Both the position numbers and the translations under genes were made by a program. Shown piece after piece: positions 6,324-42,813 of a stretch of DNA of 64,000 nucleotides; the first letter of the stretch is position 1; the number at the start of each line of letters is the position of its first letter. The notes under the pieces are model-generated. The model was given only the letters and a program-made list of their open reading frames with translations. It was not told where the DNA came from and ran no database searches. The stretch comes from Desulfomonile tiedjei DSM 6799 (GTDB lineage: Bacteria > Desulfobacterota > Desulfomonilia > Desulfomonilales > Desulfomonilaceae): NCBI RefSeq assembly GCF_000266945.1, contig NC_018025.1:3724001-3788000 (forward strand), in the 5' to 3' direction.

Positions 6324-8387
6324 TCATGCAGACTGAGTCGCCGCGTCTCCTGAATCCATCTTCTCAACCCTTACGGCACATACCTTGTATTCGGGTATCT
6401 TGCTGATCGGGTCCAGAGCAGGATTCGTGAGCACGTTCGCATTTGCCTCCATGAAATGAAAGCTCATAAACACGTTACCAGGTTTGATCAGGTCGGTTAC
6501 CATCACTCTGGTGACCACTTCGCCCCTGCGAGAAATCAGCTTGGCCATGTCGTAGCTCTGGAGACCGAGTTTCGCTGCATCGTCCGGATGCACTTCCACA
6601 TGGCCTTCAGGCATTTCTGCATGCAGAGTGGGTGAATTCCTCGTCATAGTCCCCGTGTGGTAATGAGGAAAGAACCTGCCCGTTGTAAGCTGTAGCGGGA
6701 ATTCATCATCCCGGAGTTCCTCTGACGGCCGGTACTCTATTGCGTGGAACAGCCCCTTGCCCCGGGTAAATCGCTCTGTGTGCAGAATCGGAGTTCCCGG
6801 ATGGTCGGGAGTCGGGCACGGCCACGGGATACCGCCCTTCTCCAACCTTTCGTAGCTCATTCCGCCGTAACTCGGTGCCACTTTGGCTATTTCATCGAAT
6901 ATCGCACTGGGTGAATCGTAGTTCATCGGCAATCCGAAACGTGTGGAGAGATCCTGGATAATATCCCAATCAGGCCGGGCATCGCCGAGCGGTTCGATCG
7001 CCTTACGCACTCGCAGCACGTTGCGTTCCGTATTGCTGAATGTTCCGTCCTTCTCTGCGAAGGAGACGCCGGGCAGCACAACATGCGCCAATTTCGCCGT
7101 ATCTGTAAGGAATATGTCCATTACCAGCAGGAATTCCGCTGAATGAAGCGCATGCCGCACGTGATTCACATCAGGATCGCTCCCTACAGGGTTTTCGCCC
7201 ATGATTACCAGTGCTTTCAGGGAACCGTCTTCCAGGCCGTTCATCATCTCCATGACTGTCTTGCCGACTTTGCCTGAAAGCTCCGCCTGCCATGCATCCT
7301 GGAACTTGGCTTTGACTGCCTCGTCGGTAACCGCTTGGTAAGCAGGATACACGTTTGGCAATCCGCCCATATCGCATGCACCCTGGACATTATTTTGCCC
7401 CCGCAGCGGATTGACCCCTGTGGAAGGCTTGCCGATGTGACCGGTTATCATCGCAAGATTCGCAAGGGACTTCACATTGTCCACACCATGCGTATGCTGG
7501 GTGATTCCCATCGCGTACAGAATGGAAGAACGCTTTGCTCCTGCGTACGTCTTGGCCATTGCCACGATGTCTTCAGCGGGAATACCGCATATCTCAGCGG
7601 CCCTTTCGGGAGGATAGTTTTTCACCACTTCCCGGAGCTGTTCGAATCCTTCGGTTCGCTCTTCTATGAACTGTTTGTCTTCCAGTCCTTCGGAAAGGAT
7701 CACATGCATCATGCTGTTGATAAGTGCTACGTCGGTTCCGAGATTCTGTCTCACGTGAATATCTGCGACGGACGCGAGCTGAATGCTCCTGGGGTCTGCG
7801 ATAATGAGCTTTGCACCCTTTGCTTTTGCTTTATAGACCCTGGATGCAATGAGAGGGTGCGCAACAGTGGTATTGGAACCGATCACGAACACGCAATCTG
7901 CATCTTCTATCTCAGGGATGGAATTCGTCATTGCTCCACTTCCGAAAGAGGCGGCAAGCCCTGCCACCGTGGAGCTGTGTCAGAGGCGGGCGCAATGATC
8001 TATATTGTTCGTACCGAATCCTACGCGGCAGAATTTCTGGAGCAGATAGTTTTCCTCATTCGTGCATTTGGCCGAGGTCAGGAATGCAACACTCTCTCCC
8101 CCGTGAGTATCCTTTATTTCCCGCAACCTGGCAGCGGCAAAATCCAGGGCTTCATCCCAGGATGCTTCTTCCAATTGTCCATTCTTGCGGATCATGGGTT
8201 TGGTAAGTCTTCTGGGGCTCTCCACGAACTCGTGGACATTCCACCCCTTGATACACAATTTACCTTGATTCATGGGATTGGTTTTTGACGGGAGCGTACT
8301 CGTCAGTTTCCCGTCCGTTACTTCCAGCAGCATTTCACAGCCGCATCCGCAGTAAGGACATGTTGTCCGGACGTATTTAAGATCCAT
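6324..8387 (-). CDS. fdhA: Formate dehydrogenase catalytic subunit, selenocysteine-containing
   Basis: This molybdopterin enzyme oxidises formate or reduces CO2. It reads as one 687-residue protein if the in-frame UGA at 7982-7980 is translated as selenocysteine at position 136, giving NNIDHCARLU then HSSTVAGLAASFGSGAM, exactly where FDHs carry Cys or Sec as the molybdenum ligand. Reading stays open and homologous on both sides of the UGA. The N-terminus has the single 4Fe-4S ligand set CPYCGCGCE...CIKG; there is no Tat signal and no extra ferredoxin domain, so it resembles cytoplasmic FDH-H. The C-terminal molybdopterin dinucleotide domain is present (LTTGRFFPHYHTGTMTRNSP). No electron-transfer subunit is adjacent; FdhD is encoded convergently just beyond the 3' repeats. 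Confidence 0.95.
7950..7968 (-). promoter_or_regulatory. SECIS-like stem-loop in fdhA mRNA
   Basis: Eleven nt after the UGA, GGUGGCA pairs with UGCCGCC around the loop GGGCU. The apical loop begins 18 nt after the UGA and starts with GG, which matches the bacterial SECIS geometry recognised by SelB and resembles the E. coli fdhF element. Confidence 0.85.
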
Positions 8388-24596: not shown

Positions 24597-25469
24597 TTAG
24601 CCTCGTCGGGCTGCTCTGATTTCTTCCAGGTACATCTTGATCAAAGGGCTCATTTCGGGCGGCTGCCATTTAGCGTTTTTGGGCTCTTCGGGCCATGTAA
24701 ATTCAAGGTTTCGCAATTCTCCCGGGCGGCGTGCATTTTCCAGTACAGAAAGTGTTTCAAGAAGGACCTGTTCTTGTCCCGCTTTGTCACCCACCTGGCC
24801 CAGCAGTCTGCCGTAGGGGTATTCTATTGCAGCAGTTCGAGGAACCCCCATGATTCTGTGAAATTCCGGAGTTGGTGTGAGCACTATGGTGGAAAAGCCT
24901 TTTTCTTCCAGGAACCGTGCAGCCAATCCAACGGACTGGCAACAGAAGGGTCAAGCAGGGGTGAGTATAACTGCGTCCACTCCTTCCTCGCGCATCTTCA
25001 GGCTCATAGGTTCGATGGCTTCGGTCAAAAATTCAGTGCTCTGCCATTGAAATCCGTAGAAAGAATATGCAGTCGGAGCGAGTCGCCCTATTCTTCCTTC
25101 TTTCTCTAATTCGGCCATAATACCCAGCGGCAGGATGACATTGATATCCTGCAAGATATATCCGGTATTGATATGGAGATGATTGACCGTGATGTCTTGT
25201 TCTGTAGTGTTTCGCGGCAGATATCTGAAAGATCGGTCTCCCCAGGTGGGTTCCTGTTTTTCCCGTTCCATGTCAAAAGGCGGATCGATTTTGCTGCTTA
25301 TTCCCGCGCTGGTAATAAGGGTAAGCGTAGCTTCCTTCAAAGGCTTGGAGAGCGGAGTCCACGGGATTTCTCCCTGAAATTCGTTTTCGCCGGTGAAGGT
25401 GCGAATCCACGCGGCCAGACTTGGCGGCAGGAATCGAAATCCGTCCACGACTTTTCCGGATGGTTCCAT
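24597..25469 (-). CDS. GrdB-related selenoprotein (glycine/betaine/sarcosine/D-proline reductase selenoprotein B family)
   Basis: This is a second selenocysteine gene. Two reading segments of 172 and 117 codons are joined by an in-frame UGA at 24953-24951, giving GVDAVILTPAU then PFCCQSVGLAARFLEE, a UxxC redox motif where GrdB and PrdB carry selenocysteine. The upstream part PWTPLSKPLKEATLTLITSAG and the later EYPYGRLLGQVGD are typical of the stand-alone family in deltaproteobacteria. The total is 290 residues. In clostridial reductases GrdB binds substrate and makes a Se-carboxymethyl-type intermediate; no GrdA, GrdC or GrdE is nearby, so a different reductive role is likely. It is cytoplasmic, with no signal or membrane segment. 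Confidence 0.9.
24922..24940 (-). promoter_or_regulatory. SECIS-like stem-loop in the GrdB-like mRNA
   Basis: Ten nt after the UGA, GCCAGUC pairs with GAUUGGC (one G-U) around the loop CGUUG. The loop begins 17 nt after the UGA and has G in its second position, fitting bacterial SECIS rules. Confidence 0.75.
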
Positions 25470-25719
25470 AACGTGCTCCTTCTTGACAGAGATATGGAAA
25501 GCACCTCTCTATTCGCAGGGTTGCAAAGCCGACGCTTGCGAGAGGTTCATTGAATCCGAATGTACCGGGAATAATAATGTCGACCAGCACCAGAGTAAGA
25601 AGATATCTCAGACGATCCGAGAGGAGAACAATTTTTATCCGTGGAACGGCGAGATGTCTTCTAATGTCAACTCTGACCCGAGGAGCTCGCAGGCCCTTTC
25701 GACTAGACCGCGAATTATC

Positions 25720-40081: not shown

Positions 40082-41503
40082 TCAGTACATCGTAGTGAAA
40101 GGGGAGACGCCGGGTCTATTGTTTGCCGCGTGGTACTCGAGAATCTTCCGTATCCAGGGGTCCCGTTCCAGTTGATCGGCTCTTAGAACATCCACAGCGG
40201 TGCGCTCCGGCCAATGCGAGTCTTCTTCTATGAGAATATCCGGCTGGAGTCCTTTTCCTTCTATATCACGACCGTCCGCAGTGTAATAGTGGGCAGTCGT
40301 GAGGCGCAAGGCCATTCCTGTCTGAATGGGAAAAACTGCCTGAACCGATGCTTTTCCGAAACTGGGTTTTCCAGCGACAATGACATTCGTGCGTCCCTGC
40401 AGTGCTCCGGTCAGAATTTCGGAAGCACTCGCAGACCCCTGATTTATCAAAATAATGATCTTTGTATCCGGAACCATTTTCTTTCCGGATGCTCGAAATT
40501 CCCTCGCGAAATCCGGGTTTCTCCCTTTTAGAGAGGTAATCATGCCATCAGGGACAAAAAGATCCGCCACCTGGATTGCTTCTTCAAAGACCCCTCCGGG
40601 ATTATCCCGAAGATCCAGGATAAGCAGTTTATCACGGGATGGCATTCGCGAGAACCGGACCAGTGCCTGATATACTTCTCCTGAAACCGATTCCTGAAAA
40701 TTGACGATTCTTAAATACGCTGCATCCTGTGAAAGTAGAGCAAAACGAACCGGACGGATTTGGATCATGCGCCGTTTCATGACCAGTTGACGAATTCGTC
40801 CAGATCTCGCTTCTTTCAATGTCACGGATATGGTCGATCCCGCCGGACCTCGTACCTTGCGAAGGACCTCCAGTAAAGGCACATTTTGAAGAGAATTCTG
40901 ATCTATTTGAAGGATGGTGTCACCTGCCCGAATTCCCGCATCGTAAGCCGGAGATCCCTCGAACGGCGAAATGACGACGTACTCGCCATTCTTGGGCGTC
41001 ACCACCATTCCTACGCCTCCGAATTTTCCGGAAGTGCCTATCTTGAGCTCTTTGAGCATGCTCAAATCCATCAAGCAGGAATTGGGGTCCAGATCCTGAA
41101 GGAACAGGTTCAAGGATCTGAGGAGAGACTGTTCGCGGTTAATTTTACAGGCCGATTCTATTTGTGCGATTGCCTTCGAGAAACATACTTCCGGTTCCGC
41201 ACCGCATTCTTGAAAAGTCTCCAAATCTTCCGTGCAATTGGGCAGCATACTGAATGTGAATTTCTCCAGTATACCATTGAAGAGATCGGCATCATGAATT
41301 TTCTGTGCATAATGCTGACGAAACAGAGCAATTGCCTCATCGAACGGCCGAATGCCTGTAACAGATCGCAATGGTCTGATGAAACCCGAATCGGAAAATT
41401 CCGTGCCGTTTGTAGCAGCGAACCCCGTGACAGCGCTCCCGTAGATGAAAAACATAAGAAACAGGAGAGGTAAGATGACTTTTCCGGAAGTCAGTATCAA
41501 CAT
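40082..41503 (-). CDS. S41 carboxy-terminal processing protease (CtpA-like)
   Basis: This periplasmic serine protease has about 473 residues. It has an N-terminal signal sequence (VILPLLFLMFFIYGSAVTGFA), a PDZ domain at about 170-260 (GVGMVVTPKNGEYVVISPFE, YDAGIRAGDTILQIDQNSL) and the catalytic peptidase domain with LDLRDNPGGVFEEAI, the nucleophile in NQGSASASEILTGAL and the general-base Lys in GKPSFGKASVQ. Ctp proteases trim periplasmic proteins or peptidoglycan hydrolases. I chose ATG 41503 because the signal starts right after it; an upstream ATG at 41569 adds 22 residues. Confidence 0.9.
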   Translation of the reverse strand: MLILTSGKVILPLLFLMFFIYGSAVTGFAATNGTEFSDSGFIRPLRSVTGIRPFDEAIALFRQHYAQKIHDADLFNGILEKFTFSMLPNCTEDLETFQECGAEPEVCFSKAIAQIESACKINREQSLLRSLNLFLQDLDPNSCLMDLSMLKELKIGTSGKFGGVGMVVTPKNGEYVVISPFEGSPAYDAGIRAGDTILQIDQNSLQNVPLLEVLRKVRGPAGSTISVTLKEARSGRIRQLVMKRRMIQIRPVRFALLSQDAAYLRIVNFQESVSGEVYQALVRFSRMPSRDKLLILDLRDNPGGVFEEAIQVADLFVPDGMITSLKGRNPDFAREFRASGKKMVPDTKIIILINQGSASASEILTGALQGRTNVIVAGKPSFGKASVQAVFPIQTGMALRLTTAHYYTADGRDIEGKGLQPDILIEEDSHWPERTAVDVLRADQLERDPWIRKILEYHAANNRPGVSPFTTMY

Positions 41504-41768
41504 TTCTGCTCGAATAAGAACGGTTTTCTTGGGCAGAAAGCAAACTCCTGCCTTCGGTGAATCATCCACTACGGAGCAAATCCTGTCAACCGTATCCGCC
41601 AGCCTGCAGAGTTAAAATTTTCCCCGAATCGGGACTAATGCAGCGGCCTTTCAGGCCCAATCCCCTACATTACTATACGCTAAGAAGACGAAAAAAGAGA
41701 TGACAATCATGCAATTCGAGGATACAATCCAGCTCATGTAGTTATTTTTTTTCTGTGGTGAGGGTATT

Positions 41769-42212
41769 ATGCGGTTCAAACAGGTCTGCCTTGCCATTTT
41801 TGTTGCGGTTCTTTGTTTTATTCCGGCTTTGTCCGGCGCAGCCTGATGTGATTTCGCCTTCTGGGCAGAAGGTCCGAGCTATTTTCAGGGTGGCACGACT
41901 CCTCCAAATCCGGGATATTCCGGTAATTGGAACAATGGTTACCAACAGCCGCAACAGCAATCGGCTCAAGATCGAGATTACGAAGTCCAGGTATTCACCG
42001 GTGAGGGTGGCTCAGTAACTCCCAGTCCTGCGAATCCGCGGCTTCGGCCGGTACATCAGCGAGACAATGCTACAGTAGCACGGCCCGTGAATCCGCGTTC
42101 TGTGAAGCCACACATCGAGGTTGGCAGCGCCGTTTCCGATTCGCGACTGGTCTATGGAGACCAGGCTTCACGCCCTATGTCTTCGAGAGTTTTAGGCCCT
42201 TACATGTGGTAG
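41769..42212 (+). CDS. Candidate secreted selenoprotein (in-frame UGA after signal peptide)
   Basis: A clear signal peptide (MRFKQVCLAIFVAVLCFIPA, then LSGAA) is followed directly by an in-frame UGA at 41844-41846 and then 121 more open codons to TAG at 42212. Read as selenocysteine, the mature protein would begin with U26-C27 (UCDFAFWAEGPSYFQGG) and continue as a Pro/Gln/Asn-rich chain ending VLGPYMW, 147 residues in all. A SECIS-like stem follows the UGA at the same distance as in the two proven families of this window. GAGGG lies about 6 nt before the ATG. If the UGA is a true stop, this is a nonsense-mutated gene, perhaps TGG to TGA. I do not recognise the family. Confidence 0.5.
41856..41873 (+). 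promoter_or_regulatory. Candidate SECIS stem-loop
   Basis: CCUUCU pairs perfectly with AGAAGG around the loop GGGC, extendable by one G-U pair. The apical loop starts 16 nt after the UGA and begins with GG, nearly the same as the fdhA loop GGGCU. Confidence 0.5.
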
Positions 42213-42345: not shown

Positions 42346-42813
42346 GTGGTAGTAAAGGAGCGTAAGATAAAGAAGAGCAGTGTTGATGAGACGACTGAGA
42401 CGGATCAAGCATGGTGGTCCGATTCGAGTGACGACACTGATTGGCTGGATCACGATTCCAACCATTTTGATCCTGACATGAACGGGATGATCTCTCCCGT
42501 GATTGTCGATTCCGTAAACTTCACGTCCAGCCGTGTTGCTTCGATCAGAGAAAGCCACGCGTTGCTCAGTCAATTTTCTCAAAAAGAACTCAAAATACTC
42601 ATGAGTCTCAAGCGCAACACTTCTCCGAAAGCGTGGACGCTGAGAGAAGATCTCGTAGTCCTGACGCTTGCCATGAGCAATCGAGAAATTGCTGAAGTGT
42701 TGACGGACAGGAACAAGGAAGCAGTGAAGAAACGGCTGCAATTATTGCGATCCAAAGGTTTGTCCAAGAGACAACCCGAAGAAGAATCAGCTCCCCAGCA
42801 AAACGCACTCTAA
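42346..42813 (+). CDS. Hypothetical protein with C-terminal SANT/Myb-like helix-turn-helix
   Basis: This 155-residue protein starts at GTG with GAGGG at good spacing. The N-terminal half is acidic and Asp/Trp-rich (WWSDSSDDTDWLDHD). The C-terminal part, WTLREDLVVLTLAMSNREIA then EVLTDRNKEAVKKRLQLLRS, has the W-E-D...EIA..L..R....VKxR spacing of SANT/Myb-like DNA-binding domains, also seen in phage and regulatory proteins. A role in DNA binding is inferred only from this pattern. A bidirectional terminator follows. Confidence 0.6.
   Translation: MVVKERKIKKSSVDETTETDQAWWSDSSDDTDWLDHDSNHFDPDMNGMISPVIVDSVNFTSSRVASIRESHALLSQFSQKELKILMSLKRNTSPKAWTLREDLVVLTLAMSNREIAEVLTDRNKEAVKKRLQLLRSKGLSKRQPEEESAPQQNAL

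Follow-up and report, generated by a model that had tools for sequence, protein, structure and literature searches.

The C-terminus of mammalian thioredoxin reductase is Gly-Cys-Sec-Gly, i.e. selenocysteine (Sec) and cysteine stand next to each other. In bacteria, selenoproteins are made from genes with an in-frame UGA codon that is read with the help of SelB, tRNA-Sec and a hairpin lying within the reading frame (bSECIS), which is modelled as a stem of 4-16 bp with a loop of 3-9 nt, a G in the first two loop positions and a distance of 16-37 nt from the UGA (PMC13188914). The 2026 catalogue that gives this model holds a single entry in which Sec and Cys are adjacent in that order, the (2Fe-2S)-binding CopZ-family selenoprotein form 1, GxUC (cd10141) (PMC13188914, Table 1). 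The authors of deep-Sep, a finder that keeps candidates only if they have a known Sec homologue or at least 2 Cys homologues, write that by now a Cys homologue seems to exist for every known selenoprotein (PMC12013277).

Here we describe a gene found in 64,000 nucleotides of the genome of Desulfomonile tiedjei DSM 6799 (positions 3,724,001 to 3,788,000 of NC_018025.1, called the window below; the genome is 6.5 Mb in two contigs). It resembles the genes of bacterial selenoproteins in its in-frame UGA, in a GG-starting apical loop within 16-37 nt downstream and in the presence of SelB and tRNA-Sec, but its product has no domain, no recognisable Trx-like fold and no UxxC/CxxU motif, and the Sec would be among the first residues of a chain that is exported and apparently disordered. 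In other words, the insertion mechanism is ordinary and the protein is unusual. Adjacent Sec and Cys residues are common to this family and the CopZ-like GxUC proteins, whereas the family described here has a signal peptide and the motif (G/A)UC(G/D) followed by FWxEGPSYF. It also has only one Cys and therefore no cluster ligands, and none of its six members has an NCBIfam or a relevant Pfam match. With thioredoxin reductase it shares a vicinal Sec/Cys pair at a flexible chain end, but the end and the order are the opposite ones, no flavoenzyme is attached and there is no homology. Nothing like the protein was found in the catalogue of 119 prokaryotic selenoprotein families (PMC13188914), which agrees with the claim of an earlier note on this DNA that the form is not among the described selenoproteins. 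A full-text search of the open-licence literature returned no paper on a Desulfomonile selenoprotein, and a prior description elsewhere is possible. Judging from the sequence comparisons below, we consider it very probable that this gene encodes a selenoprotein belonging to a new family, with the UGA recoded as Sec.

The gene in the window

The gene occupies positions 41769-42212 (+ strand) and, with UGA read as Sec, has 147 codons and a TAG stop. A Shine-Dalgarno-type GAGG (41760-41763, +) is found 5 nt upstream of the ATG, and this GAGG-N5-ATG form of the start is common to all six orthologs. The frame opens with a predicted signal peptide, MRFKQVCLAIFVAVLCFIPALSGA (41769-41840, +), recognised by eye from a basic n-region, a hydrophobic core and small residues at -3/-1. 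The in-frame TGA, codon 26, is at 41844-41846 (+) and is adjoined by a Cys codon at 41847-41849 (+), while the C-terminal motif LGPYMW (42192-42209, +) directly precedes the stop codon at 42210-42212, so that the whole protein can be written as MRFKQVCLAIFVAVLCFIPALSGAA-U-CDFAFWAEGPSYFQGG...SSRVLGPYMW-stop. There are 121 sense codons after the UGA (Cys, then 120 more). The signal peptide, the position of the UGA, the Cys in the next codon and the length of the open stretch are all as the earlier note had described them. A stretch of this length has a chance of about 2% of being open under a dinucleotide model, therefore the window sequence by itself is suggestive rather than decisive.

Conservation in six genera

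Two clear orthologs came from a search of 60 relatives in which UGA was tolerated, and two more from a three-sequence profile; the last member was missed by the first profiles and was reached through the downstream gene of a helix-turn-helix (HTH)-like protein. The search of relatives together with synteny thus yielded five orthologs of the window gene, one from each of five further genera of the family, i.e. a set of six genomes (G000, which is the window genome, G002, G006, G008, G009 and G011). Identities to the window protein are 28-41% across the alignments, and 30-41% when all six are aligned together. In each of the six the UGA is at the homologous site and is followed directly by a Cys codon, and this Cys is the only one after the UGA. 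The context of the putative Sec is SGAA-U-CDFAFWAEGPSYF in the window protein, AVAG-U-CGVGSAFWDEGPSFF in the G011 member, and AEGG-U-CGPTFWEEGPSYF, VGAG-U-CGPSFWSEGPSYF, EPGG-U-CGPAFWTEGVKYF and SGAG-U-CGIGTGSWSGGMGF in the others. The frames remain open for 121, 130, 193, 160, 182 and 130 codons after the UGA, with a joint chance of 8e-11 if the six are treated as independent; the other two frames contain 1-6 stops each over the same region, and all six proteins end in LG-x-x-x-W-stop. The six sequences are not independent since all come from one taxonomic family, but the pattern is kept across six genera and is therefore far more than chance.

These data bear on two readings in which the UGA is a true stop. 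According to the first, the UGA arose by a recent nonsense mutation and the downstream frame is a relic, i.e. the gene is a pseudogene; termination is the default reading of UGA, and the 2% figure for the window frame alone is compatible with it. However, six genera have this UGA in common despite low protein identity, their C-terminus is conserved and no frameshifts occur, and a shared relic would have decayed, so that this explanation is ruled out for practical purposes. The earlier note had named Trp, Arg or a deletion at this codon, or downstream frameshifts, as the signs of a pseudogene in homologues; none of these was found, and both the UGA and the stem downstream of it are kept in all six. 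According to the second reading, the signal-peptide frame ending at the UGA is a regulatory leader peptide for the HTH-like gene, which is indeed located 3' in every case, and the rest is untranslated. We give this almost no credence: if the stretch were untranslated, one frame would not have stayed open over 121-193 codons in six genera, with stops in each of the other two, nor would the LGxxxW-stop end have been kept. The preferred reading is thus that translation continues through the UGA.

We found no convincing Cys homologue in about 395 genomes of the phylum, either with the profile A6, in which Sec was scored as Cys, or with A1. A Cys form would have appeared at similar strength because of this scoring. 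As no such form was found, support for recoding comes from UGA/UGA conservation and not from the usual Sec/Cys pairs. The absence of a Cys homologue is unusual for selenoproteins and counts against the assignment, even though such a homologue is a usual and not an obligatory criterion. As all six members have Sec and no form with Cys turned up, the family directly tests the generalisation that all selenoproteins have Cys homologues. We regard it as possible, though somewhat short of probable, that the family exists only in the Sec form and that a vicinal Sec-Cys at the mature N-terminus of an exported disordered chain is its sole functional group. If true, such selenoproteins would form a class that has neither a folded domain nor Cys counterparts. 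Genes of this kind are cut off at the UGA by ordinary gene callers, and current selenoprotein finders would filter them out.

The hairpin downstream of the UGA

A bSECIS-type hairpin, G-CCTTCT / GGGC / AGAAGG-T, is located at 41856-41873 (+) with the loop at 41863-41866. As the earlier note had it, the stem CCTTCT/AGAAGG consists of 6 Watson-Crick pairs and the loop GGGC begins 16 nt after the UGA. An equally good stem with that spacing and loop follows 8 of the 2331 TGA triplets of the window (0.34%), and the folding energy of the hairpin alone is unexceptional for the window (z 0.13). The comparison of the six sequences is more informative: 40 of the 42 pair cells are formed and two pairs show compensatory changes, while control versions slid by 1-3 columns pair at only 43-64%. 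The loops of the orthologs are GGGC, GGGA, GGTC, GGAC, TGGGAT and GGTC; they start at 16 nt from the UGA, or at 21-22 nt in two members with a 6-nt insertion, and sit on stems of 5-8 bp, counting G-U. Stem, loop and spacing thus fall within the bSECIS model in the orthologs. The minimum free energies, -8.3 to -15.6 kcal/mol for 42-50 nt starting at the UGA, all lie below the threshold of -7.5 kcal/mol, the predicted fold not always being the exact consensus hairpin. The conserved peptide FWxEG fixes some of the stem and so accounts for a share of the hairpin conservation. As a counter-check, Phe is replaced by Ser and Glu by Gly in the G009 member, yet the pair is kept (T-A to C-G). With the UGA, the Cys, the frame and an in-register hairpin retained in six genera, recoding of the UGA is strongly supported, and the selenoprotein reading of the earlier note is supported with it.

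Selenocysteine machinery

SelB scores above the cut-off in 18 of 18 genomes of the family and tRNA-Sec above the gathering score in 16 of them, including all six genomes with the Sec gene; the tRNA-Sec of the window genome has the anticodon UCA. The Sec gene itself is restricted further. A same-genus genome (86% complete) has no detectable copy of it, and in G004 tyrS and the HTH-like gene adjoin each other with nothing in between, therefore the Sec gene can be absent while the Sec machinery remains.

A second SelB was observed beside a tRNA-Cys that has the shape of tRNA-Sec and the anticodon GCA (G000:C1:3562734-3564838, L036:3735-5875, and contig C38 of G001, L037). These are the two genomes of the window's genus, and no further member of the family has a second SelB above the cut-off; the pair matches the published selC*/SelB* tRNA-Cys system (PMC7609411). 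Such a system could in principle recode the UGA to cysteine and give a Cys-Cys head, the more so as some selC* tRNAs in other organisms carry a UCA anticodon (PMC7609411). We consider this extremely unlikely, because in both G000 and G001 the anticodon is GCA, which reads Cys codons and not UGA and so cannot account for the UGA here, and because the other five genomes with the Sec gene have no second SelB above the cut-off. Sec therefore stays the preferred amino acid at codon 26.

The mature protein and its putative function

The identity of the amino acid, the export and the cleavage site are inferred. Placing the cleavage site by the -3/-1 rule, and not with a predictor, signal peptidase I would most plausibly leave one Gly or Ala before the Sec in most members (X-Sec-Cys), and in the window protein cleavage probably falls between ...SGA and A-U-C. 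The earlier note had put Sec-Cys at the very N-terminus of the mature chain; the adjacent pair near the exposed end stands, but one Gly or Ala likely precedes it.

An alternative is a selenolipoprotein instead of a soluble exported protein, with Sec taking the place of the Cys that carries the lipid in a lipobox. An A or G precedes the Sec in all six members, and V-A-G in the G011 protein is a fair lipobox, while the other five have G, E, G, P or G at -3, where L/V/I is usual. Since the pattern [LVI][ASTVI][GAS] before the +1 residue occurs in one of six, we find a lipoprotein very unlikely and prefer the soluble exported form.

After the signal peptide P, Q, S, G, A and R are abundant in the chain, and the tail looks disordered and P/Q/S/G/A-rich. 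A single-sequence AlphaFold model, which is weak evidence, shows the signal helix (residues 3-24) and nothing folded beyond it (mean pLDDT 54.7). Searches of Pfam, NCBIfam and PDB gave no informative match and plasmids likewise nothing useful, so that neither these databases nor the model offer a fold or domain to back any function. We suggest the following course of events. Ribosomes would start at 41769 and read the UGA at codon 26 as selenocysteine by means of SelB with tRNA-Sec(UCA), guided by the hairpin and its GG-starting loop 16 nt further on. Export would follow by the general secretion route, and signal peptidase I would cut the precursor so that the mature protein begins with (Gly/Ala)-Sec-Cys. 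Next would come FW-x-EGPSYF, then a disordered linker rich in P/Q/S/G, and the C-terminus would be aromatic. The mature chain would have no selenol or thiol apart from those of the adjacent Sec and Cys, and we propose that this pair most likely forms a selenenylsulfide reversibly or binds soft metals or electrophiles outside the cytoplasm. In our opinion the protein is most likely exported and would have a Sec-Cys head, redox-active or soft-metal-binding, on a flexible tether. As a best guess, the chances of a redox role are about even, binding of a metal or an electrophile is less likely, and some other function is less likely again. Such a family would be an addition to the known selenoproteins, as its Sec-Cys pair would sit at an exposed end of a protein that has no recognisable fold and is located outside the cytoplasm of an anaerobe.

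Gene neighbourhood and distribution

The gene 3' of the Sec gene in all six genomes (42346-42813, +, in the window) encodes a protein of 155 aa whose C-terminal region is HTH-like; Pfam gave weak matches for it, none above the cut-off. Its C-terminus is highly conserved (77-87% identity over 70 aa) and its N-terminus is variable. Of the 18 family genomes 7 contain it, and the Sec gene is present in six of these 7. A faint match was also found in a single genome outside the family (G067, L120), where it has no Sec-gene-like neighbour. The order tyrS - Sec gene - HTH-like gene is found in five of the six genomes; in the window tyrS does not adjoin the Sec gene, and a divergent S41 peptidase gene (40082-41569) is located upstream.

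Two draws of 395 genomes gave nothing convincing outside the family, the best weak matches having been read in part. The weak profile matches L010, L014 and L018 were due to chance on reading, and eight translated ones of the A6 search (L086-L090, L093, L100 and L108) to chance or to unrelated proteins; a further match of that search, L109, is the exported Cys-Cys protein described below. A DNA-pattern search of contigs with a gap of 7-13, which is able to recover only a copy of the G011 type (L051), gave 40 other matches without in-frame spacing, judged by match length only.

An exported protein of 170-177 aa with Cys-Cys clusters (G001:C514:3193-3723, L109:1477-2010, and G000:C1:5189605-5190114, L119) adjoins MacB-like ABC transporter genes and in G001 is also near a gene with a TCSMHPQ motif. 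It resembles the Sec family in having a signal peptide followed by CC, a P/Q/G-rich chain and a C-terminal LW, but differs in its three Cys-Cys clusters, the conserved VTSMGxGWNVP and the gene context. The profile match between the two has a probability of only 35%, and the likeness is one of layout.

The earlier note used two other genes of the window as references. The one at 7982 (-) is FdhA as it had said (TIGR01591 above the cut-off), with the loop GGGCT 18 nt after the UGA. The other, at 24953 (-), is a PrdB/GrdB-like protein, with TIGR04483 below its equivalog cut-off. This protein (24597-25508, -) contains Sec in the context ...TPA-U-PFCCQS... and a best TIGR04483 score of 130 bits against a cut-off of 300; with a score so far below the cut-off it would be a divergent relative of D-proline reductase.
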